38,983 nucleotides of DNA from Candidatus Shapirobacteria bacterium (lineage in GTDB: Bacteria > Patescibacteriota > Microgenomatia > 0-14-0-10-38-17): positions 1 through 38,983 of the forward strand of contig JAGPNC010000007.1 of NCBI GenBank assembly GCA_018052565.1. The letters run 5' to 3'. The notes beneath the pieces were generated by a model that saw only the letters and a list, made by a program, of their open reading frames with translations, did no database searches and had not been told where the DNA came from. A program made the translations under genes and the position numbers. This document shows, one piece after another, positions 296 to 10,932 of the stretch; positions within the stretch are counted from its first letter, which is position 1; each line of letters opens with the position of its first letter.

Positions 296-301
296 AGGTA
301 C

Positions 302-330
302 TTGATTTTCGTTAATAAATTTTATAGAAT
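302..330 (+). promoter_or_regulatory. Leaderless promoter of NUDIX copy 1
   Basis: TTGATT (302-307), a 17-bp spacer and TAGAAT (325-330) precede the ATG at 337 by only 6 nt, so transcription should begin at or next to the start codon. No Shine-Dalgarno sequence is present. Confidence 0.6.
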
Positions 331-336
331 AGCACC

Positions 337-762
337 ATGTCAGAATTCGGAGTAGCAACCAAGGCGATCATCTTTAACACCAAATTGGGAAAATATCTGG
401 TCCTAGAAAAGAGTGGTCTTGAGGACATTAACCCCAATACTTTTGATATGCCAGGAGGCAGGATAAAGTTTGGGGAAAAACTTGAGGAGGCAGTAATTAG
501 AGAAGCTAAAGAAGAAACAGGGCTGGATATAGAACCCAGACAAGTCTTTAACGCGTGGACGTTTGTCAAAGGAGATAAAGATTTTCAACTAACAGGAGTT
601 GATTTTTTGTGTTTTACCGAACAAGAAAAAGTTAAACTAAGTGAAGAGCATTCGGGCTTTGAATGGAGAGGTGCGGAAGAAATAATTAACGATGAAAAAT
701 ATCCCGAATGGCTCAGAAAAACCATTGAGAGAGCTGAAAAATTACGAGGAATCTATTCATAA
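337..762 (+). CDS. NUDIX hydrolase, copy 1
   Basis: A 141-residue single-domain NUDIX hydrolase. The NUDIX box GX5EX7REXXEEXG lies at residues 41-62, starting GGRIKFGE and ending REAKEETGL, with all metal-binding acidic residues in place. Such enzymes cleave nucleoside diphosphates linked to another group, acting as clean-up or nucleotide-pool enzymes in the cytoplasm; the substrate cannot be read from the sequence. The protein is identical to the copy at 9889-10314. The start is fixed by a promoter whose -10 hexamer ends 6 nt upstream of the ATG, giving a leaderless message. It is transcribed against the aminotransferase remnant and valS. Its location near a nucleoside-type operon suggests, but does not prove, a role in nucleotide handling. 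Confidence 0.92.
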   Translation: MSEFGVATKAIIFNTKLGKYLVLEKSGLEDINPNTFDMPGGRIKFGEKLEEAVIREAKEETGLDIEPRQVFNAWTFVKGDKDFQLTGVDFLCFTEQEKVKLSEEHSGFEWRGAEEIINDEKYPEWLRKTIERAEKLRGIYS

Positions 763-927
763 AACCAATCCCCCCGATTGTTTACTTTTAAAATCTTACT
801 TCTTAGCGTTTTATAAACTCCTTCTTCTTTTGTCGTTTGCCAATTGCCTTCGTAGTATTACATTTGCGCCTCTCCGTCCACCCAATTTTTGTTTGAGAAT
901 TTTACAAATGGCGTATCCTTTGTGCCT

Positions 928-1152
928 TCAAACTTTAATCGCCTTTCTTATGCTTTCAATACTGCCGTGATGAAGAGCACTTGTCCCGCTATTAACAGCC
1001 ACGGCGTATTTTTTACCTATAAAGCGAGCGAACTCTCTTTCAAAATGATCTACCTCTAAACCATTACTTAATTTTCTGGAACGAATAACTTTTAATATAG
1101 CTTTCTCTTCTTCTTCACCTAAAATAGGTTGATATAGCGGTATTTTTGCCAT
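928..1152 (-). pseudogene. Chimeric remnant: DegT-type aminotransferase N-terminus joined to a methyltransferase tail
   Basis: From the ATG at 1152 the frame encodes about 74 residues. The first ~58 (MAKIPLYQPILGEEEEKAI, then FARFIGKKYAVAVNSGTSALH) are the N-terminus of a DegT/DnrJ/EryC1/StrS sugar aminotransferase, normally 360-400 residues long, stopping just after the cofactor-loop motif SGTSALH. The frame then continues as HHGSIESIRKAIKV, which is the end of the methyltransferase at 10480-10851. The switch occurs at 978/979, the edge of the long repeat, with shared ALH codons at the joint. Neither enzyme can be functional. The ATG lies 22 nt beyond the valS stop, so in the source genome an aminotransferase gene followed valS. 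Confidence 0.85.
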
Positions 1153-1174
1153 AAGTGAAAAAGAAAACCATGAA

Positions 1175-3703
1175 TTAAAGCGCAATTACTAAATCTGCCT
1201 GATAGTCTTTTTTATCCTCAGCGAATACTAAAACTACTTCTTCTGACTTGCTTACAGAAGCAATATCCCCAATAAATCCCTCCAGCAATGTCTTCTGCTT
1301 CCTATCTCTACATACAATAACCATTCTTTTAAGAGGTTTACCAAGTCCCATTTTTCTCTCTGATTTAAATTTTCTGACACCTGCTACTACCTCAAGCATC
1401 AAAAATGCATCCCTTGTTATCTTCTCACTCCTTTTTTCTTCTGTCATATCAAACCACTGAGTGTTGTGGATACTTTTACTTCCATTTTGGCGATAAAAAT
1501 AACCCATATGTGGACCGCTTTCCAGCCTACCATCCATTATTTCTCCTCCGGTTCGAATAAAATCGGTGTGATACATTTCCTCCGCGAAATGAGGCAAAAA
1601 TGGGGCAACCATTCTCAGAATTCCCATATACACACGATTAAGTGCATATTGAGCGGATCTCCGCTCGAAAGAATTCTTATCTCTGGAATATAATCTGCCT
1701 TTAATCAACTCTAAATAATTATCTGTAAAGTCATTCCAGAAGAAGTTTTCAAATTCACTCAGGGCTCTGGCAAACTCATATCTGTCAAATTCTCTTGCCA
1801 TAGCTTTAATCACTTCACCCATTCTTTGTAAAATCCAACGGTCGGTAACTATTAATTGTTCTGCTCCAATTTCGGTATTTGGATCAAAATCTTCTAAATT
1901 AGCTAACGCAAATCTTCCACTGTTGTAAAGTTTTGTAACCAACTTTTTACCCTTTTTTACTTGATCATCGTCATAGTAAGAATCTTTTCCGAGCGCGGCA
2001 TGGCACATAGCGTATCTAACAACATCGGCAGAATGCAGACTTATTAATTCTTGTGGCTTATACTTTCCTCCTCCCGTCTTTTTGCTAATCTTTTCTCCCT
2101 TTTTAACTAAAACATGACCTGAAATCATTAAATCTTGCCAGGGAATATCATTGTGGTTATAAATACTCATAAGAACGGTGTATACAGCCCATGTGCGAAT
2201 AATATCGTGAGCTTGTGGCCTCATCGACATGGGGAACATTTTCCCCCGAAGTTGCCCGTTCAGTTGATGCTGATTATTTATGTCTGGAGTTAAAGCAGAT
2301 GTAAACCATGTGTCAAGCACCAATGTCTCGGGGTAGAGTGAGCCACTTCCGCAATTGGGGCAAGTATGAACAACCTTTGTCTCTTTTGGATCCAAAGGCA
2401 AATCACTCTCCTTCGGAAGCACAACATCGTTACAATCGTCACATATATACGCAGGAACTGGAATTCCAAAAAATCTTTCTCTAGAAATACACCAATCCCA
2501 CTTTAAATTAGTAACCCAATCCATATATCTTTTCTTCATATAAGGCGGATACCATTTAATCCTTTCACCAGCCTTAACTAATTCTTCTTTTTTATTTAAT
2601 ATTCGAGCAAACCATTGAGTTCGAGGAATAATCTCAATTGGTGTTGCACACCTCTCATGAACACCAACGCTATGGTTGATTTGTTTCTCGCCTCTAATGT
2701 ATCCTTGTTCTTTGAGCTTTTGAACTATTGCCTCCCTTGCTTCTAAAATAGTTAGTCCTCTTAGAAATGGCGCATTTTCCAAATCCTCAATATGTCCTGT
2801 TTCATCAATGATAACCTTATGGGGCAATCCATACTTTCTTACCCAATGCAAATCTGTCTCGTCGCCAAAAGCGCAACACATAACAGCACCACTTCCCTTC
2901 TCAATGGAAACCAAATCGTCCGCAATAATTTTAACCCTATCTCCTAACGGGGTGACTACTTCTTGGCCTACAAAATGTTTATATCTGGCGTCTTGTGGAT
3001 TCACAAAAACGGCAACACAAGCAGGTAATAATTCGGGTCTAGTTGTGGATATGACTATCTCTTGACCAGATTTTGAAGAGAAAGCCAGATCGTAAAAAAC
3101 CGATGAGATTTCCTTATCTTCAACTTCCGCTTGAGCTATTGAAGTACAGCACTCGTGGCAGTATAGAGCAGGTGTCTTTTGTCTGTATATGACTCCATTC
3201 TTGTAAAGCCGGATAAAGGTTGCTTGAGATAATTTTTGCACCTCATCCGAAATCGTCGAATAATCCAAACGCCAATCAACACTCAAGCCTATAGATCTCC
3301 ATAAATTTCTGAATTCGTTAATATATTTCTCTACAACTATCATGCATTCTCTGCGAAACCCTTCTGGGCTTCGATCCTGTGCTTTTATTCCGAGTTCTTT
3401 TTCTACCAATCTCTCTGTTGGCAATCCGTTGTCATCGTAACCAAATGGGTATCTAACATTAAACCCTGCCATCCTCTTGTATCTACTAATTACTTCAGCT
3501 TGGATATAAGAATAAATGTGCCCTAAATGCAGGGACCCAGATATGGTAGGAGGTGGGGTATCTATCGTATAGAGAGGTTTTTCTGAATAAGGATCGAATT
3601 TATAAACTCCTTCTCTTTCCCAGAAATCTTGCCAGTACGGCTCTCTTACTGAAAAGTTATACCCTCCTTCTTTGTTTTGTGGCCTACTTTTTTTTTCTGG
3701 CAT
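1175..3703 (-). CDS. valS: Valyl-tRNA synthetase
   Basis: An 842-residue class I synthetase that charges tRNA-Val. The HIGH signature is HLGH at residues 59-62, and the KMSKS loop appears as the variant EKISKK. Two Cys clusters (CHECC, and CDDC with CPNC) suggest zinc binding, and DTWFTSALTP is the motif typical of the Val/Ile/Leu group. The editing domain sits between the two halves of the catalytic core. It is somewhat shorter than the usual 880-950 residues and ends in an anticodon-binding domain without an obvious long coiled-coil arm. A promoter and a GAGAGGG element lie upstream. The gene sits inside a block that replaced part of a methyltransferase gene and is flanked by truncated genes, so horizontal acquisition is likely. 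As an essential function it is probably the working copy, but other copies cannot be excluded. Confidence 0.97.
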   Translation of the reverse strand: MPEKKSRPQNKEGGYNFSVREPYWQDFWEREGVYKFDPYSEKPLYTIDTPPPTISGSLHLGHIYSYIQAEVISRYKRMAGFNVRYPFGYDDNGLPTERLVEKELGIKAQDRSPEGFRRECMIVVEKYINEFRNLWRSIGLSVDWRLDYSTISDEVQKLSQATFIRLYKNGVIYRQKTPALYCHECCTSIAQAEVEDKEISSVFYDLAFSSKSGQEIVISTTRPELLPACVAVFVNPQDARYKHFVGQEVVTPLGDRVKIIADDLVSIEKGSGAVMCCAFGDETDLHWVRKYGLPHKVIIDETGHIEDLENAPFLRGLTILEAREAIVQKLKEQGYIRGEKQINHSVGVHERCATPIEIIPRTQWFARILNKKEELVKAGERIKWYPPYMKKRYMDWVTNLKWDWCISRERFFGIPVPAYICDDCNDVVLPKESDLPLDPKETKVVHTCPNCGSGSLYPETLVLDTWFTSALTPDINNQHQLNGQLRGKMFPMSMRPQAHDIIRTWAVYTVLMSIYNHNDIPWQDLMISGHVLVKKGEKISKKTGGGKYKPQELISLHSADVVRYAMCHAALGKDSYYDDDQVKKGKKLVTKLYNSGRFALANLEDFDPNTEIGAEQLIVTDRWILQRMGEVIKAMAREFDRYEFARALSEFENFFWNDFTDNYLELIKGRLYSRDKNSFERRSAQYALNRVYMGILRMVAPFLPHFAEEMYHTDFIRTGGEIMDGRLESGPHMGYFYRQNGSKSIHNTQWFDMTEEKRSEKITRDAFLMLEVVAGVRKFKSERKMGLGKPLKRMVIVCRDRKQKTLLEGFIGDIASVSKSEEVVLVFAEDKKDYQADLVIAL

Positions 3704-3713
3704 AAATTTATTT

Positions 3714-3782
3714 TCCCTCTCTATATCAATATTTCTGGTCTATATTGTGCTGGATTGTATCAAAATATTGATCTTTTTACAA
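3714..3782 (-). promoter_or_regulatory. valS promoter and ribosome binding site
   Basis: On the minus strand TTGTAA (3782-3777), a 17-bp spacer and TACAAT (3759-3754) are followed by a leader of about 45-50 nt. That leader contains GAGAGGG about 11-13 nt before the ATG. It is too short for a T-box. valS thus has a conventional leader, unlike many genes in this window. Confidence 0.45.
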
Positions 3783-3896
3783 GCTCAAGGTAAAAAAACT
3801 TCCTTTTTATATTCTCCCGCCCAACGGCAGTATTCTCAGGTGTAAGAAAAAAAGGAGGAGTTTAAACATTCCAAAAAAAATCAATCTTGCTGATTT
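3783..3896. other. Spacer between the glycosylase remnant and valS
   Basis: No gene is seen. On the plus strand there is an AAAAAAAGGAGGAG run near 3845-3858, but no reading frame follows it, so I do not call a ribosome binding site. Confidence 0.35.
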
Positions 3897-4205
3897 CTAT
3901 TCTAAAATACATTCGCAGGGTTTATTTTTTAAAATTTCTTTTTGTTCCTCTAGGGTATTAAGAAAAACATCCTGTTTGCCTTTTCCTTTGGCTAATTTTT
4001 TCTCCAAAGGGCTTTGGTGATGATAGTCGCGTTTTTTAAACTCCGCCACCAAATTCTGATGTCTTTTATAAAGTGCCCTTAGTTTTCCTTTCCAGCGCAA
4101 AGTTTCCGGATGATGCGAATAACCGCCCTTACCCTTGTGTTTGGTTAAAATATTCCAAATGGCATGAAGCTCACGATGTTCCGCCAGCAAATGTTTCCGC
4201 CACTT
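3897..4205 (-). pseudogene. Pyrimidine-dimer DNA glycosylase, 5'-truncated
   Basis: The frame encodes RKHLLAEHRELHAIW and then about 85 residues including the SHHPE and HHQSPL stretches, matching the T4 endonuclease V family (Pyr_excise), which repairs UV dimers. In T4 numbering His16 to Glu23 (HLMAEYRE) aligns with HLLAEHRE, so the catalytic Glu23 is kept. The first ~14 residues with the N-terminal Thr2 nucleophile are absent. In frame, a TAG lies only a few codons upstream and there is no ATG; the first possible start is a TTG at 4190. Upstream sequence is instead the beginning of a methyltransferase gene, so the 5' end was lost at a recombination joint near 4194. Activity is unlikely without Thr2. 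Confidence 0.75.
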
Positions 4206-4275
4206 CTATCAGCTCTGGCTGAGGAGTATTAAATATTTTCCCGTGTTTTTTAAACTCTTCATTCCATTGCTTCAT
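4194..4275 (-). pseudogene. Methyltransferase 5' fragment
   Basis: From the ATG at 4275 the frame reads MKQWNEEFKKHGKIFNTPQP and continues to VAE. This is almost identical to the start of the methyltransferase at 10851. It then runs into glycosylase sequence and stops at a TGA shortly after. The matching 3' part of the gene is at 928-978, 3.2 kb away in the same orientation, so one original gene was split by the valS block. Confidence 0.88.
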
Positions 4276-4356
4276 ACTTTTTTTAATAATTTAAAATCTC
4301 CCCTTATAAGCGCCTCTTTTTTTGCTCTTGTCCAGCCCTTCAATTGTTTCTCGCGT
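4194..4356. repeat. Second repeat pair, left copy (163 bp)
   Basis: It matches 10770-10932 with three substitutions and no indels. On the minus strand it carries the last 27 codons of a GIY-YIG gene overlapping the first ~27 codons of a methyltransferase. The offset (6,576) differs from that of the 683-bp repeat (9,552). The difference of 2,976 equals the valS block (3,215 bp) minus the missing methyltransferase segment (239 bp). Confidence 0.93.
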
Positions 4357-4771: not shown

Positions 4772-5341
4772 TTAGCTCGCTGCACCTACAGATTGTTCAA
4801 CAAGGCTAAGAAATTCTTCTGTTGAGATACCATTGTTTCTGATACGAACAACATTAAAACCGTCTCTTTCCAGCTTCCCCATTAGCCATTGGTATATTTG
4901 AATTTCTTCGGAAACTTCCTCAACCGATCGGTGAAAGTGAGTACCGCGGCCATACTCTCTGGAGAAACTTGTTTCTGGATCACTTTCTAAAAAGACAATC
5001 CTATAATCAGTTTTTCCGCCCATTATTCTTTCAAACATATTCTTCCCGAGATCATATATTAAAGAACGATGATCGGGCTTTTTTCTAATGTTATAAGCAA
5101 CCAGTGACCAGATAGACCTATCCATTACCGAAATCGATCCATCGGAGCTATTTATTACCAGTTCCAAAATATCGATACTTTGTTTCCAGTTTTCTACTTC
5201 ACGATTAACAACTAATTCCTGACCTGAAGGAATACCCCCAACTAGTTTACAGCCAATTTTTGACAAATGCTCTGCGGCAGTCGTTTTTCCACTACCCTGC
5301 GCGCCTTCGATAATTAAAACTTGACTCCTTCTTTCTTTCAT
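4772..5341 (-). CDS. P-loop kinase, deoxynucleoside/thymidylate-kinase-like
   Basis: A 189-residue protein with a Walker A motif GAQGSGKT at residues 13-20, a DRS motif in SVMDRSIWS near residue 95 (typical of deoxynucleoside and thymidylate kinases), and an Arg/His-rich lid-like stretch REYGRGTHFHRS near 130-141. These features point to phosphoryl transfer from ATP to a small substrate, probably a nucleoside or nucleotide, in the cytosol; the exact substrate is unknown. It is the last gene of a four-gene operon, and its ATG overlaps the stop of the deoxyribosyltransferase-like gene (ATGA, 5338-5341), so the two are likely co-translated. No ribosome binding site of its own is obvious. A non-nucleotide substrate remains possible. 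Confidence 0.8.
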   Translation of the reverse strand: MKERRSQVLIIEGAQGSGKTTAAEHLSKIGCKLVGGIPSGQELVVNREVENWKQSIDILELVINSSDGSISVMDRSIWSLVAYNIRKKPDHRSLIYDLGKNMFERIMGGKTDYRIVFLESDPETSFSREYGRGTHFHRSVEEVSEEIQIYQWLMGKLERDGFNVVRIRNNGISTEEFLSLVEQSVGAAS

Positions 5342-5922
5342 CTTTCATTTAGGAACTTTTCGCGGGCAGAGCGGATTAACCTTTTAAGATACTCTGTTTT
5401 ACTTATTCCCAGACTATTAGCGACCGTCTCGATAAAAGAATAGTCTTTATTGTCAATGACCAGCTGAAATCTAACCTTTGATTGCTTTTTGGCTTTTCTA
5501 ATCAAAGGCAAAAGGTTCTTTTTTAAATCCTCAAGATTTTTATATTTTAAAGTAAAAAACTTTCTTGATTTAATTCCCCGAATAATCATGGAGGGATTCG
5601 ATTTTTCATTTTCTGTAAACAAAACAATAATCGGTTTTTTCTGATAAAAGGCATGATAAACCTGATAGCCAACACCGCCACTAGGATAACTAATATCAGC
5701 AATAAATAAATCAGAATTGTTTATTTCCTCAATTACGCTCTCATATATATGGGTATAATCTATTTTCCCCGAGGGTAGATCAAAGTCTTTTTTGCGAAAA
5801 ATTACTTGAGAAGTAGCAAAGCCCTGATTTTCAAGTAAGTAGATTATTTCTCTATATCTTTGCTTTTTTTCTCGAGAAACGTCACTGGATGCGGCAAAAA
5901 ATACCTTTGTCTTCGTATTCAT
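5338..5922 (-). CDS. Nucleoside 2-deoxyribosyltransferase-like protein with C-terminal RHH-like segment
   Basis: 194 residues in two parts. Residues 1-102 resemble the NDT/DNPH1 fold: VFFAASSD near the N-terminus, then DLFIADISYPSGGVGYQ at 71-87 followed by a KKPIIVLF strand. In active members the position after GVGY is the nucleophilic Glu; here it is Gln87 (codon CAG), so glycosidic cleavage may be lost or altered. Residues about 152-190 (QLVIDNKDYSFIE...ISKTEYLKRLI) resemble a ribbon-helix-helix DNA-binding or dimerisation unit. The combination suggests a nucleotide-binding or sensing protein, possibly a regulator, rather than a plain salvage enzyme. It overlaps its neighbours on both sides by ATGA (5919-5922 and 5338-5341), placing it firmly in the operon. 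Confidence 0.75.
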   Translation of the reverse strand: MNTKTKVFFAASSDVSREKKQRYREIIYLLENQGFATSQVIFRKKDFDLPSGKIDYTHIYESVIEEINNSDLFIADISYPSGGVGYQVYHAFYQKKPIIVLFTENEKSNPSMIIRGIKSRKFFTLKYKNLEDLKKNLLPLIRKAKKQSKVRFQLVIDNKDYSFIETVANSLGISKTEYLKRLIRSAREKFLNER

Positions 5923-7463
5923 ATTCGTCCGTTCTGATATTGACTAGTTGATAATCCGACTTGATTATACAGGTGGTCTGTTTGATTTTTAACTAAAGCC
6001 AGACTTCCTGAAAATTCTCTCCTTGATTTTTCTAAAACATCTTGAAGTTTTGTAGGATCTGAAGCATGTTGAGTAAGTCTTTCGGAGACCTCAAGATCCA
6101 TGTTTTTTAAAATCATATATAATTCATGGAATCTGGCATGCATTTGCGGAGAAACATTCTTAGGCGCAGAGATGGGGTCAATCACTTGCTCATATAGAGG
6201 AGCAAGCTCTTTTGCCCATGATCTTAGGGCATAGTAGAAATTTCTAGCCTGTGGATCGATGATTTCATATAAATTATTTGCCCCTTCTTTTCCTATAAAT
6301 CCCACCTCACGATGTAATCTTTTGGTAATTCTTGTCCCGTCTGCGGCAAACAGTTTGGTACATATTCCTTTGGTGACCGCCCATTTGAATCTTTTTAGAT
6401 AATGTAGTTCTTCTTCGACTTCAGCCATAGTTGTAAAAGGCCAAAACATAATATGGCCCATTTGAACGTAGATGCCATGTTTACTCAGAATCTCTAAAGC
6501 TTTGATATTTTGTTCTACTGTTGTTCCCTTAGCAAAATCGTTAAGTTTTTTCTGGACAAAAGACTCGACTCCTAAACTAACCGCAAACAACCCGGCTTGC
6601 TTAAGCAATTCAATGAGTTCGTTTTCGACGTCATCAACTCTTAGAGAAATTCTAAAGCGCATATTTATGCCCGAGTTTTTTAGCAGTTGAGCAAAGCGTA
6701 ATTCTCTTTGTTTGTCAACTCTCTGGCCAAAAAAGTTATCATCAACCAGCTTAACCATATCTTCTCCTCGTTTTGATAGGTCCACCAATTCTGCTACGAT
6801 GCTCTCTGGACTTCGCCCTCGCCAGCGCTTTTCAGTCGAAAATTTTTGGTAACAGGCAACCGAACAAAAGGAGCAATTTCCTCTACAACCCCTACTTCCC
6901 ATAACATGGGAGGGGGTTTTTAGTTTCCTAACAAGAGGTAGAGTTTCCCTGTGTGGCAACGGTAGTAGGTCCAGATTATCATCGACTTCCTGCCTTGGGT
7001 TTCTGATTATTCTCCCCTTTTGCCAATAAATTGCTCCTGGGACATCACGGATATTGCCAGCTTGTAAAAATTTCTGAAAAGTTTCATCTGCTTCTCCTGC
7101 CAAAATCCCGTCTATCTGAGGACCAATCGCAGCTAGCAAGCTATCAGCTTCAAAAGAAGCATAAATTCCTCCCAAGACTATTTGGCCTTCATATTGTTGT
7201 GATCTTAAGAAGGAAACCAACTCAGTGACAATCGGAAAAGAATCCATCGAGGGTGAAATTCCAACCACATCAGGTTTTTTCTCTAAAACCCTTTGGCCAG
7301 TTTGTTTTAGATCCAATCCAGACATCCAAGCATCAAGATAATCAACCCTATGCCCATGTTCAATAGATTCTGCCGCTAAATATTCTAGCCCCAAACATTC
7401 CTCGGGGGTCCGATGGGTAGTTGTTGGTGGTGATATTAGGGTAATTTCTTTACTGCTAGCCAT
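5919..7463 (-). CDS. B12-binding-type radical SAM protein
   Basis: 514 residues. Residues 1-140 form a cobalamin-binding-like Rossmann domain (VVGISPSMDSFPIV, then VLGGIYASFEAD), without a recognisable DxHxxG. The radical SAM cluster CX3CX2C is Cys193, Cys197 and Cys200 (GCRGNCSFC), preceded by the usual DLLPLPHRE linker. A C-terminal region of about 100 residues is not recognised. Such enzymes use an iron-sulfur cluster and SAM to make a deoxyadenosyl radical, commonly for methylation or rearrangement of unactivated carbons. The target here is unknown. It overlaps the upstream SPASM gene by 8 bp and the downstream deoxyribosyltransferase-like gene by 4 bp. Confidence 0.88.
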   Translation of the reverse strand: MASSKEITLISPPTTTHRTPEECLGLEYLAAESIEHGHRVDYLDAWMSGLDLKQTGQRVLEKKPDVVGISPSMDSFPIVTELVSFLRSQQYEGQIVLGGIYASFEADSLLAAIGPQIDGILAGEADETFQKFLQAGNIRDVPGAIYWQKGRIIRNPRQEVDDNLDLLPLPHRETLPLVRKLKTPSHVMGSRGCRGNCSFCSVACYQKFSTEKRWRGRSPESIVAELVDLSKRGEDMVKLVDDNFFGQRVDKQRELRFAQLLKNSGINMRFRISLRVDDVENELIELLKQAGLFAVSLGVESFVQKKLNDFAKGTTVEQNIKALEILSKHGIYVQMGHIMFWPFTTMAEVEEELHYLKRFKWAVTKGICTKLFAADGTRITKRLHREVGFIGKEGANNLYEIIDPQARNFYYALRSWAKELAPLYEQVIDPISAPKNVSPQMHARFHELYMILKNMDLEVSERLTQHASDPTKLQDVLEKSRREFSGSLALVKNQTDHLYNQVGLSTSQYQNGRI

Positions 7464-8736
7464 GGCTATTTTCCTTTGGTGAAAATATACCAGTGCATAG
7501 ATAGCCTTTATGAACTAAAGCGTGTTCACTTTTTTTAATTTTTGCCTGATACGTCTGCCCCTGGTTTTTTGAGGTAAAATCTTTAGGGCAATAAGGATCT
7601 TTGACAAATAACGATCGTTTTTCGTTTACTTCTTCGTGTAATCTGTGTAAATATGCCCTGGCAGCGCAACCACCTCCACAAACAGATACTTGATTACAGT
7701 TTTGGCAACCCTCAATAATCTCGGGGTTCGCCTTTCGTCTTCTAAAGGCTTGAAAGGGAGGGGAGTTTAGGATTTCTTGAATGTCCATTGTTCGCAAATC
7801 ACCGTACTTATAATCATGCAAATAAACACAGGGAGAAATCGGTATCCGGCCATCGGGTGTAATTGAGTGGATTCTAAATGAAGTGATTCCGCACGGACAC
7901 CCGGAAACTATACTTGAAGGAATATTGGCAGAACTTGCCCAGGCTGGATCGCTCAAATCGATTGGTTCGCATCTTGCCAAGATTGTCATTAAGCCTTGGT
8001 AGAATTGTTCTGGCGTCAAGACAAGATCCATATGTTTAGGTTCAGTAGGTTTGATTGGATTGACGCGATAATTTGCTTGATGCTTAACAGCCATATCGAT
8101 CATTTCATTGATTCTTTCCGGAGTAAAATTCCAATTCATCGCACACATTACAAAGCTTCTTGGGATTTGGTGCTCTTTACAAATTTCTAGCGCTTGCATC
8201 GCTATTTTGTAAATGCCACTTCTCCCCCTATTTTGATCGTGCTCATTGGCTCTGGGGGAATCAATGCTAATATCAACATCATTTATTTTTTCTAAGTAGT
8301 CGGGGAAGAATTTTTCTAATTGCACTAGCGTAATCCCTGAAGTAGTAACCCCAACCAACATTCCTTTTTTAGAGATAGAATCCAGGATATAAGGAAGTAA
8401 GGAATCCTTGGGGTTAAGCCCGTTGGTATAAATTGGTTCGTTTCCGCCAAGATTGACTGTTTTTACTCCTAAGTAAGTTAATTGATCAACCACTCTGTCC
8501 ACTATCTTTTTTGTTAAATTTTGACCTAGTTCACGGGCACTTTTTGAATAACATTGCTTACAATCCAAAGGGCAAGCGTTACCAAGCGACCAGCCGACGT
8601 TTTTGTAATTAGCTTCTGCCTCAGGCAAATCAGCGTGTTCTATTATATATCTGGCTGAAAAATAATGGGCTCGGCTTACTTGTTGTAGTTGAGACATAGT
8701 TATTATTTTGCTATTATATGCACATCCAATGTACAT
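7456..8736 (-). CDS. Radical SAM/SPASM-domain protein
   Basis: A 426-residue enzyme with the SAM/iron-sulfur motif CX3CX2C at Cys55, Cys59 and Cys62 (ACPLDCKQCYS). Its C-terminal SPASM-like region holds many Cys: GCPCG, a Cys in ISPCVY, then CQNCNQVSVCGGGCA and DPYCP, enough for auxiliary clusters. SPASM proteins modify peptides, proteins or small molecules. No precursor peptide gene is visible next to it. It leads the operon. The start at MYIGC is chosen because an excellent promoter has its -10 hexamer 7 nt upstream, which would make the message leaderless. A start at the later MSQLQQ would lack a ribosome binding site, though TATAAT lies 16 nt before it. Confidence 0.88.
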   Translation of the reverse strand: MYIGCAYNSKIITMSQLQQVSRAHYFSARYIIEHADLPEAEANYKNVGWSLGNACPLDCKQCYSKSARELGQNLTKKIVDRVVDQLTYLGVKTVNLGGNEPIYTNGLNPKDSLLPYILDSISKKGMLVGVTTSGITLVQLEKFFPDYLEKINDVDISIDSPRANEHDQNRGRSGIYKIAMQALEICKEHQIPRSFVMCAMNWNFTPERINEMIDMAVKHQANYRVNPIKPTEPKHMDLVLTPEQFYQGLMTILARCEPIDLSDPAWASSANIPSSIVSGCPCGITSFRIHSITPDGRIPISPCVYLHDYKYGDLRTMDIQEILNSPPFQAFRRRKANPEIIEGCQNCNQVSVCGGGCAARAYLHRLHEEVNEKRSLFVKDPYCPKDFTSKNQGQTYQAKIKKSEHALVHKGYLCTGIFSPKENSHG

Positions 8737-8743
8737 TAGTAGA

Positions 8744-8772
8744 ATATTATCAATTAAACTTTAAATTGTCAA
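8744..8772 (-). promoter_or_regulatory. Leaderless promoter of the radical SAM operon
   Basis: On the minus strand TTGACA (8772-8767), a 17-bp spacer and TAATAT (8749-8744) precede the ATG at 8736 by 7 nt. The -35 is a perfect consensus. The divergent adenosine-deaminase-like gene starts only 10 nt from this -35 box, so the two genes probably share control. Confidence 0.7.
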
Positions 8773-8781
8773 GTTGATAAA

Positions 8782-9867
8782 ATGGTTTATAAAGATCAAC
8801 ACCTACATTACACCGGCTCCCTGCCCCTATCGTATATCTGGCTAAAAATTAAAGAATCTTGCGGAAGTCTTGTTGACTATATTCTTCTCGAAGATTTGTT
8901 TTCCAGAAACATATCTAGAAAATTAAAAGAAAAAGATTTTTCCGATAAGACTTATTCCCTTTTTAAAGAAGAAATAAAAGGATTGTTTGATAGCAAAAAT
9001 AATTATGCCCGTAATTACGAGAAGTTCTTTAAACTATACAAGTTTATCCAAAAGTTAACTAAACCCCGGGAAAATCAGAAGATAGAACAAGTTTATCGGG
9101 AAGGCACTGGAGCCATCATTTCTTGCCTATCAGGACTTAAAGTAAGTGAGATTGATATTTTTGCGGGGCCACTTTTGGATTTAGAAAAAACAAAATCCAG
9201 GCTTCAAGGTATGATTCAGGGATTTAAAGACAATCAAAGGTTGCCGGTTAAGGGCTCTATTAGACTGACTTTTATTAGCACAAAGAATGGTTATATAAAT
9301 CTAACCCAACAGTCGCTCGAAAAATTGCTAGATTATCTGATTTCTAATAAAAAAATTTCTGATCATATAAGCGGTTTTGATTTTTCAGGAAATGAAGATG
9401 TTAACAACATAGATTTCATTTCTTCCACGGCAAGAAGGCTTTCAATTTTTAATAAAAAATTCTATTCGCAGAATAACCGAAAGCTTAAAATATCAGTTCA
9501 TGCTGGCGAAGATTTTGTTAACATTTCATACAAAAAATACCTGGACTACTTTGATAAATTGCTAAACCTTCCAATTGACAGCATCGGCCACGGTGTGTTT
9601 CTTTGGATTCCTGACGACTCTATAAATTATTCAAAAAAAGTGAATAAGCAGCGCCGGGAGTTGTTAAAAAAAGTTGTTGAAAAAAATATTGAGCTGGAAA
9701 TTTGCCCCACCTCTAATCTTTTGTTTTCTCCGCTTAAATCTTACCGGGATATCCCTTTTAATTTTTTTAATAAGATCGGCTTGAAATATTCAGTTAACAC
9801 GGACAATATGACTATTCTTTCTACTGATATCAAAACTGAATGGGAAAAGGTACTTGATTTTCGTTAA
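8782..9867 (+). pseudogene. Adenosine-deaminase-family protein, 3' end replaced by the repeat
   Basis: 361 residues of an amidohydrolase fold. Metal ligands are visible: HLH at residues 7-9, His240 and Glu243 in SVHAGE, His270 in IGHGV, and Asp341 in NTDN. CPTSNL is also present. The family's second Asp of the TDD motif is Asn342. Family members usually run about 40-60 residues beyond this motif; here the last ~6 residues come from the 683-bp repeat (from 9848), so the natural C-terminus is missing. It may be inactive or only partly active, and I cannot exclude that it still folds. It is divergent from the radical SAM operon with 45 bp between starts, suggesting an original functional link through a nucleoside or base deamination. 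No convincing promoter or ribosome binding site was found. Confidence 0.78.
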
Positions 9868-9882
9868 TAAATTTTATAAAAT
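9854..9882 (+). promoter_or_regulatory. Leaderless promoter of NUDIX copy 2
   Basis: TTGATT, a 17-bp spacer and TAAAAT, 6 nt before the ATG at 9889. The single change from TAGAAT in copy 1 could alter strength. Confidence 0.6.
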
Positions 9883-9888
9883 AGCACC

Positions 9889-10314
9889 ATGTCAGAATTC
9901 GGAGTAGCAACCAAGGCGATCATCTTTAACACCAAATTGGGAAAATATCTGGTCCTAGAAAAGAGTGGTCTTGAGGACATTAACCCCAATACTTTTGATA
10001 TGCCAGGAGGCAGGATAAAGTTTGGGGAAAAACTTGAGGAGGCAGTAATTAGAGAAGCTAAAGAAGAAACAGGGCTGGATATAGAACCCAGACAAGTCTT
10101 TAACGCGTGGACGTTTGTCAAAGGAGATAAAGATTTTCAACTAACAGGAGTTGATTTTTTGTGTTTTACCGAACAAGAAAAAGTTAAACTAAGTGAAGAG
10201 CATTCGGGCTTTGAATGGAGAGGTGCGGAAGAAATAATTAACGATGAAAAATATCCCGAATGGCTCAGAAAAACCATTGAGAGAGCTGAAAAATTACGAG
10301 GAATCTATTCATAA
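9889..10314 (+). CDS. NUDIX hydrolase, copy 2
   Basis: Identical in protein sequence to the enzyme at 337-762, with the NUDIX box at residues 41-62. The coding sequences also appear identical, so the duplication is recent or kept uniform by gene conversion. The gene follows the truncated adenosine-deaminase-like frame by 21 bp, so besides its own leaderless promoter it could be read from upstream. It runs towards the methyltransferase on the opposite strand, leaving a 165-bp spacer without a terminator that I can recognise. Confidence 0.92.
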   Translation: MSEFGVATKAIIFNTKLGKYLVLEKSGLEDINPNTFDMPGGRIKFGEKLEEAVIREAKEETGLDIEPRQVFNAWTFVKGDKDFQLTGVDFLCFTEQEKVKLSEEHSGFEWRGAEEIINDEKYPEWLRKTIERAEKLRGIYS

Positions 10315-10479
10315 AACCAATCCCCCCGATTGTTTACTTTTAAAATCTTACTTCTTAGCGTTTTATAAACTCCTTCTTCTTTTGTCGTTTGCCAATTGCC
10401 TTCGTAGTATTACATTTGCGCCTCTCCGTCCACCCAATTTTTGTTTGAGAATTTTACAAATGGCGTATCCTTTGTGCCT

Positions 10480-10851
10480 TCAAACTTTAATCGCCTTTCT
10501 TATATTTTCGATACTGCCGTGATGAAGAGCCTGAGTGGAGATTATCGCTTCAAAAAAATTGTCTGGATATGGCAATTCTTTATATATGTTGCCAACTTTT
10601 AAATTTGCCCTTAGCCCCTCTTCTTTCAGCCATTTTTCTGCCAACAAAATGCCCTCTTCGGCGATGTCTATGCCATAAACCTCAAATCCTTTTTTGGCAA
10701 GATAAACGACATGCCTCCCCGAGCCGCAACCCAAATCTAGCACTCTATTTACGCCCGCCTTCTTAAATATTTCCGCCACTTCTGTCAGCTCTGGCTGAGG
10801 GGTATTAAATATTTTCCCGTATTTTTTAAACTCTTCATTCCATTGCTTCAT
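10480..10851 (-). pseudogene. Class I SAM methyltransferase, C-terminally truncated
   Basis: 123 residues of a type-11-like methyltransferase. The SAM-binding motif I VLDLGCGSGRH is at residues 37-47, the acidic residue after strand 2 is in VYGIDIAE, and a strand-4 motif FFEAIISTQALHH follows. Family members usually continue for another 80-120 residues, with a KPGG-type strand 5 after the helix seen here as ENIRKAIK. That part is absent: a TGA ends the frame after AIKV, and a basic in-frame stretch (GYAICKILKQKLGGRRG) follows without matching the family. It is therefore probably truncated and inactive. Its start overlaps the upstream GIY-YIG stop (ATGA). A second copy of this gene is split between 4194-4275 and 928-978. 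Confidence 0.75.
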
Positions 10852-10932
10852 ACTTTTTTTAATAATTTAAAATCTCCCCTTATAAGCGCCTCTTTTTTTG
10901 CTCTTGTCCAGCCCTTCAATTGTTTCTCGCGT
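10770..10932. repeat. Second repeat pair, right copy (163 bp)
   Basis: Partner of 4194-4356 with three substitutions. The homology ends inside a GIY-YIG gene, showing that two different GIY-YIG genes were joined at this point. Confidence 0.93.

Follow-up and report, generated by a model that had tools for sequence, protein, structure and literature searches.

A four-gene operon and a divergent gene pair on a 38,983-bp stretch of DNA from a Candidatus Shapirobacteria genome (GCA_018052565.1; the stretch, here called the window, is the entire contig JAGPNC010000007.1) belong to a real, conserved and apparently undescribed gene family in which two radical S-adenosylmethionine (SAM) enzymes are found in a nucleotide context. 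The operon encodes a SPASM-domain radical SAM enzyme, a B12-binding radical SAM enzyme, an NDT-like protein with a ribbon-helix-helix (RHH)-like C-terminal segment, and a thymidylate-kinase (TMK)-like P-loop kinase, and it faces an adenosine-deaminase (ADA)-like gene that is followed by a NUDIX hydrolase gene. With a chance that we would put at about even, the operon and the ADA-NUDIX pair together represent, in compact form, an undescribed family of two-radical-SAM clusters that has spread horizontally and makes a modified nucleoside or nucleotide, the likeliest starting material being an adenine (deoxy)nucleotide. To our knowledge, few radical SAM routes to modified nucleosides have been characterized (those to oxetanocin, albucidin, albomycin, 4'-thiothymidine, and others). 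Such modified nucleosides are antivirals, antibiotics, or herbicides. A radical SAM pair with nucleotide-enzyme neighbors in many phyla represents a defined, expressible gene set for finding a new compound, and a dedicated six-gene set in an 840-kb, pathway-poor genome would show that very small bacteria make specialized metabolites or nucleotide-based defenses.

Relatives of the SPASM protein were sought by an alignment-based scan of the genomes of 84,980 species, and proteins 43–59% identical to it are encoded at 58 genome loci across bacterial phyla and DPANN archaea. These include Actinomycetota, Bacillota, Pseudomonadota, and Nitrospirota, together with Mollicutes metagenome-assembled genomes (MAGs), the candidate phyla radiation (CPR) lineages Microgenomates, Moranbacteria, Azambacteria, Liptonbacteria, and Parcubacteria, and the DPANN lineages Woesearchaeota and Micrarchaeota; plasmid proteins of Streptomyces clavuligerus, Phaeobacter, and Enterococcus are 47–50% identical. 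The phylum to which the window belongs has the gene only rarely: of 380 genomes, one carries it, and this is the window genome itself. The relatives were dereplicated at 80% SPASM identity into 31 groups, and neighbors were sought within 6 kb using profiles built from conserved clusters. A homologous B12 radical SAM gene lies no more than 1 kb from the SPASM gene in 17 of these groups; the 21 groups obtained at up to 6 kb were set aside as the pairing count since some of the distant matches are other B12 or MiaB-type radical SAM genes. The distance matrices of the two enzymes are correlated across 12 dereplicated loci (Mantel r = 0.66, reached by none of 5000 permutations), and their trees show matching broad groups, with the window on a long branch that has no supported sister.

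Nucleoside and nucleotide enzymes recur beside the pair. Near the SPASM gene are found a small pyrophosphatase-like protein (16/31 groups), an ADA, MtaD-like or 5'-methylthioadenosine (MTA) phosphorylase (MTAP)-like gene (13/31), a TMK-like kinase (10/31), and NUDIX (5/31), as well as HPrK-like (6/31), HD (5/31), and Hsp70-like (4/31) proteins. These names are backed by Pfam or NCBIfam, except for the HPrK-like and HD proteins, which were read from the sequences, the HD protein that was tested having no Pfam match. Locus L074, in an alphaproteobacterial MAG, has the order NUDIX-B12-SPASM-ADA with a TMK-like kinase on the opposite strand and then an Hsp70-like gene, and L044, in Seinonella, has the order NUDIX-MtaD-like-kinase-B12-SPASM. 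Five gene kinds of the window thus co-occur in two other phyla, in one of which the deaminase comes from a different family, and at L088 the SPASM gene is beside an ADA-like gene, with a kinase. Because the combination recurs in other phyla and the distance matrices of the pair are correlated, it exceeds what chance would produce. A search for conserved neighborhoods had been proposed along with the sequence-only reading of this DNA, which regarded the genes as an undescribed set of nucleoside character and was to be abandoned if no other genome held at least three of them adjacent. L074 holds five kinds, the pair is conserved beside nucleos(t)ide enzymes, neither radical SAM enzyme reaches a named family model at its cut-off, and searches of the open-access literature, with subscription papers outside their scope, brought up no account of the set, so that this view of the locus has held.

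The wider family displays considerable variety in its surroundings. The Hsp70-like ATPase beside the radical SAM pair (L074 11805–13088, 427 amino acids; L078 2929–4194, 421; L080 5952–7223, 423; L088 2902–4185, 427) occurs at loci spanning CPR, Woesearchaeota, and alphaproteobacteria. At L069 (1366–9225) and similar loci of rumen and gut Clostridia, an operon of near-constant content starts with genes for a histidine phosphatase, the SPASM and B12 enzymes, a methyltransferase, and an unassigned 219-amino-acid protein, and continues with two kinase-like genes, a P-loop gene, and a pyrophosphatase-like gene; serine-recombinase-like genes are present at several of these loci, and the operon is probably the cargo of a mobile element. 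Streptomyces phage SF3 (L035 4854–7428, gp36–gp38) encodes a B12 radical SAM enzyme, a TMK-like kinase, and a NUDIX protein consecutively near its integrase. Relatives on plasmids and viral contigs are accompanied by genes for MFS or MATE transporters and by nonribosomal peptide synthetase (NRPS)-like adenylation genes. A phage origin was considered and rejected, as phage and viral collections searched with the SPASM, B12, and ADA proteins returned one clear SPASM relative (L094, with NRPS- and transporter-like genes in its flanks) and distant matches.

The nearest solved relative of the B12 enzyme is OxsB. In the Protein Data Bank (PDB), a profile of the B12 family matches OxsB best (1.1e-37, the next match being at 6.2e-23), and OxsB is also the best fold for the structure model (pLDDT 86; TM 0.76–0.77 by query length, E 2.9e-24; next at most 0.64). 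The window enzyme comprises 514 amino acids, compared with 744 in the OxsB PDB sequence, and its B12 domain starts near residue 24; judged by this length and the Pfam domain positions, it does not contain the N-terminal domain of the OxsB/AlsB type. OxsB acts on dAMP, dADP, and dATP, and its homologue AlsB rearranges dAMP (PMC13331322).

That the two radical SAM enzymes are of different types, as had been proposed, is borne out by Pfam, which gives radical SAM and SPASM domains for one and B12-binding and radical SAM domains for the other. The SPASM protein scores 41.9 bits against PF13186 and 39.9 bits against TIGR04085 (cut-off 27), the SPASM domain being a feature shared with maturases of ribosomally synthesized and post-translationally modified peptides; at cut-off, only this general domain model and none of the named whole-family models was reached by either enzyme. 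The radical SAM cysteines at positions 55, 59, and 62 and further cysteines are invariant across 25 sequences. By its structure model (pLDDT 88), the enzyme is similar to a large number of SPASM proteins to about the same degree, the fold search thus being unspecific, and a profile search of the PDB with the SPASM family gave no match at 1e-8.

The kinase, a divergent PF02223 protein, lies above the Pfam cut-off (34.8 bits against 27) and below that of the dTMP kinase equivalog TIGR00041 (32.8 bits against 83.25), and is additional to the genome's own TMK, which is encoded on contig C36. The ADA-like protein similarly falls short of the adenosine deaminase equivalog TIGR01430 (62.7 bits against 216.55). 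It is 32–33% identical to the products of the ADA-like genes adjoining the SPASM gene at L074 and L088, with which it shares the zinc and catalytic residues (HLH, HAGE, GHG, and the ligand Asp). A truncation of its reading frame by a repeat junction (see below) was ruled out, since these homologues end at about the same place. The NUDIX protein is 37% and 33% identical to those of L074 and L044; its gene had been left outside the interval originally delimited, which stopped short on the right, and judged from the relatives it is a member of the set.

The NDT-like protein matches PF05014 at 23.6 bits, below the cut-off of 28.8, and its C-terminus is weakly similar to the VapB antitoxin (E 0.008). 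Its family is found in 71 of 187 searched relatives, independently of the radical SAM pair. The window protein has Gln (VGYQVYHA) at a position where most CPR relatives (VGYEI), and also the NDT-like protein of L039, have Glu, the residue that is the nucleophile in true NDTs. Because this catalytic Glu is replaced, a sensory or regulatory role is the more likely, and the protein is probably a nucleos(t)ide sensor or regulator rather than an enzyme; for the same reason, its candidacy as a biosynthetic N-glycosidase was rejected. The suggestion that the operon contains two proteins of nucleoside character thus stands for the kinase, but not for the NDT-like protein as a pathway enzyme, given the Gln and a family that is far wider than that of the SPASM gene. 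Proteins combining NDT- and RHH-like parts form a large family in the small genomes of the relatives (L003–L031), often in tandem copies and with a variable active-site Glu, and are possibly nucleotide-sensing regulators.

Since the radical SAM pair adjoins nucleotide kinases, deaminases, and other nucleotide enzymes, a modified nucleoside is the probable product. In the scheme that we propose, the OxsB-like B12 enzyme would rearrange or alkylate the sugar moiety of a nucleotide, and the SPASM enzyme would subject this molecule to a second radical step, with the TMK-like kinase phosphorylating the substrate or product. The ADA-like enzyme would act as a deaminase, either on an intermediate containing adenine or, as is quite possible, on 5'-deoxyadenosine, an inhibitory by-product; the NUDIX protein would hydrolyze unwanted or toxic (tri)phosphates, and the NDT-RHH protein would sense a nucleos(t)ide and regulate transcription. 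It is possible, though we hold this extension only tentatively, that the clusters constitute an unrecognized family of nucleotide antimetabolites, in which two successive radical SAM steps on an adenine nucleotide have been spread horizontally through many phyla, episymbiotic CPR, and DPANN, and supplemented by lineage-specific tailoring and self-protection genes. The product may be a secreted antimetabolite, a defense nucleotide, or something else.

A number of observations weigh against the synthesis of a modified nucleos(t)ide. The best-scoring NCBIfam model for the B12 enzyme is BchE, and because B12 radical SAM enzymes are diverse and few structures have been solved, nearness to OxsB does not prove an OxsB-like reaction. 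The closest folds to the SPASM enzyme are those of peptide maturases and BlsE, and SPASM radical SAM enzymes act mostly on peptides. Neighboring genes differ by lineage, the window being without the pyrophosphatase-like gene that is found in about half of the groups, and the window kinase is just 15–25% identical to the other cluster kinases, such that occupation of the same slot does not amount to orthology. Moreover, no exporter was recognized in or beside the window operon.

The four genes, which overlap successively by 8, 4, and 4 bp, are present where the sequence-only reading had placed them, as is the divergent ADA-like gene, judging by open reading frame coordinates and Pfam (Table 1). 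The promoter it described as a perfect consensus is not one: the site matches at 10 of 12 positions, and sites of this kind occur in the region at chance frequency (18, against 16.4 +/- 4.2 expected). Between the -10 hexamer of the operon and the first SPASM ATG (8736) there are no more than about 8 bases, and because of this crowding the second ATG (MSQLQ..., 13 codons downstream) may be the true start of the gene.

Table 1. Coordinates of the operon, its neighbors, and the flanking repeats in the window.
Feature	Position	Strand	Details
SPASM-domain radical SAM enzyme, operon gene 1	7456..8736	-	426 aa; PF04055 + PF13186
B12-binding radical SAM enzyme, OxsB-like minus the OxsB N-terminal domain	5919..7463	-	514 aa; PF02310 + PF04055
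NDT-like domain with C-terminal RHH-like segment	5338..5922	-	194 aa; PF05014 23.6 bits
Thymidylate/deoxynucleoside-kinase-like P-loop kinase	4772..5341	-	189 aa; PF02223 34.8 bits
ADA-like enzyme, divergent from operon	8782..9867	+	361 aa; PF00962 64.4 bits
NUDIX hydrolase, 21 bp past ADA-like gene	9889..10314	+	PF00293 57.6 bits
Promoter-like site of operon	8743..8772	-	TTGACA-17-TAATAT, TG ahead of second hexamer, 10/12
683-bp direct repeat, left copy (NUDIX and methyltransferase end)	296..978	+	99.4% identical to 9848-10530
683-bp direct repeat, right copy (end of ADA-like reading frame inside)	9848..10530	+	99.4% identical to 296-978
168-bp direct repeat, left copy (methyltransferase start, GIY-YIG gene end)	4189..4356	+	97.6% identical to 10765-10932
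168-bp direct repeat, right copy	10765..10932	+	97.6% identical to 4189-4356
Second, archaeal-type valyl-tRNA synthetase (ValRS)	1175..3703	-	842 aa; PRK13208 926 bits

The two direct repeats lie in the same order around the operon and the ADA-like gene. The 683-bp repeat, which includes the NUDIX gene (second copy at 337–762), is present in two copies in the whole genome and no more. The simplest reading would be a tandem duplication, or the integration of a circle, of a unit comprising NUDIX, methyltransferase, GIY-YIG, operon, and ADA genes, and in the left copy of this unit a 3.2-kb block (979–4188; a DegT fragment, ValRS, and a Pyr_excise fragment) appears to stand in place of 234 bp of the methyltransferase gene. 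Contig C36 carries the other ValRS-like gene of this genome, whose product of about 700 amino acids is 34% identical to the 842-residue protein, and ValRS-like genes of similar size (about 700 amino acids) in relatives are about 30% identical. In antibiotic clusters, an additional synthetase can confer self-resistance; among the relatives of the operon, none was seen with a ValRS, and the link of this gene to the operon remains positional.

Repeats of this kind raise the question of whether the assembled locus is a chimera of strain variants in which the ADA-NUDIX pair adjoins the operon artefactually. The gene-fragment junctions at 978, 4189, and 9848, the contig end at base 1, and the state of the assembly (840 kb in 44 contigs, 96% complete, with an estimated contamination of 4.95%) are all compatible with such an artefact. 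We nevertheless regard it as very improbable, since ADA, SPASM, B12, and NUDIX genes are neighbors independently at L074, as are SPASM, ADA, and a kinase at L088, there is no repeat junction between 4357 and 9847, where the operon and nearly all of the divergent ADA-like gene lie, and the copies of the two repeats differ by 0.6% and 2.4% and are therefore not the same reads placed twice. Modification of a ribosomal peptide, with the SPASM enzyme as maturase, the B12 enzyme as methylase, and the nucleotide enzymes as incidental neighbors, is also improbable, though somewhat less so. The SPASM domain is in its favor, and peptide maturases, for example SkfB and SuiB, are among the best NCBIfam and PDB matches of the SPASM enzyme; however, the overlap of the window genes leaves the operon without space for a precursor, the gene runs of L074 and L073 likewise showed none (short reading frames elsewhere were not systematically searched), and nucleotide enzymes recur across lineages.

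A substantial chance, albeit short of even, attaches to the proposal that the ADA-like enzyme and its MtaD-like and MTAP-like counterparts are housekeepers destroying the 5'-deoxyadenosine released by both radical SAM enzymes, in which case the substrate of the pathway could be something other than an adenine nucleoside. Three enzyme families with 5'-deoxyadenosine- or MTA-type substrates occupy this slot in the 13 groups noted above, and those of its members that are not ADA give sub-cut-off matches to models of 5'-deoxyadenosine deaminase and MTA phosphorylase. Entries 2pgf and 3ewc, which we take to be Plasmodium ADA able to deaminate MTA, are among the solved structures that best match the ADA trio. 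No PNP_UDP_1 family protein was found in the window genome, compared with 13 of 14 control genomes that have one, and hence the window genome would be without an MTA/S-adenosylhomocysteine nucleosidase, MTAP, or PNP of that family. 5'-Deoxyadenosine is described as a toxic by-product of radical SAM enzymes (PMC6079011). A housekeeping role leaves the kinase, pyrophosphatase-like, and NUDIX neighbors unexplained, however, and all three enzymes are absent from most groups. Antiviral defense, in which the two radical SAM enzymes and the kinase would make a chain-terminating or signaling nucleotide in the cell in the style of a viperin with its kinase, is unlikely. The PADLOC candidate pair PDC-M51A/B matches the B12 enzyme (PDC-M51A, 46 bits over 358/420 positions) and related TMK-like kinases (PDC-M51B; L074, 53 bits, and phage SF3, 45 bits); the gene trio of SF3 near its integrase, a sporadic distribution that includes conjugative plasmids and loci adjoined by recombinases, and the lack of a visible exporter in the window or the examined surroundings of L073, L074, L078, and L080 are likewise consistent with defense. 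Against this, the M51 and prokaryotic viperin (pVip) matches are weak (12 bits for the window kinase), the plasmid and viral-contig relatives with their transporters and adenylation genes resemble producers of secreted natural products, and no neighbor was shown to be a known defense gene, defense-island enrichment being outside the analysis.

Several known systems share features with the window set, which is here read as encoding the synthesis of a modified nucleos(t)ide. Prokaryotic viperins with kinases, like PADLOC PDC-M51, place a radical SAM gene beside a TMK-like nucleotide kinase gene, and RdrB of RADAR shares the amidohydrolase-fold ADA family and catalytic motifs with the window ADA-like protein. 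The sequence-only reading had drawn both parallels as partial ones, and a close tie to either has not materialized. Membership of the viperins was rejected because the window SPASM enzyme matches pVip only at superfamily level (45 bits) and has a SPASM domain; it also has further Cys clusters, and the set contains two radical SAM enzymes. Membership of RADAR was rejected because the 361-residue ADA-like protein scores 30.2 bits against an RdrB model of 850 positions with a cut-off of 800, and neither RdrA nor a second RADAR gene was found among those scanned.

Other parallels are offered by nucleoside pathways. The oxetanocin pathway consists of OxsB plus OxsA, an HD phosphohydrolase, and the window B12 enzyme is nearest to OxsB by profile and fold, but it is shorter and lacks the N-terminal domain, and there is no HD gene in the window set. 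The core of the albucidin pathway is, like that of the window set, two radical SAM genes, albA and albB (AlsA/AlsB), which formed the smallest gene set yielding albucidin upon heterologous expression (PMC7074753); AlsA is biotin-synthase-like, whereas the second radical SAM enzyme of the window is a SPASM protein. Relative to both pathways, whose type is further characterized by a ring contraction of dAMP or dATP, the window adds kinase, ADA-like, NUDIX, and putative sensor genes. The 4'-thiothymidine cluster thmA-C combines a radical SAM enzyme, a nucleoside kinase, and a nucleotide triphosphatase, the last conferring self-resistance (PMC12691670), a logic shared with the window when compared by gene kinds and not by the ThmA-C sequences, although it has a single radical SAM enzyme and no deaminase where the window has two and an ADA-like protein. 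On paper, the window set works in the manner of these pathways, but it lacks those of their defining features that were tested. The actinobacterial loci L039–L043, L045, and L055 and the S. clavuligerus plasmid locus (L032) have a radical SAM pair homologous to that of the window, and differ from it in carrying APH-, HPrK-like, and MTAP-like genes and, in most cases, ThyA-like, NDT-like, ThiD, and apparent TenA genes. At L039–L043, L045, and L055, a module downstream of the pair in most cases (MTAP-like, ThyA-like, NDT-like with the catalytic Glu kept, ThiD, and apparent ThiO- and TenA-like genes) appears, from its gene content, to resemble a bacimethrin-type thiamin-antivitamin module.

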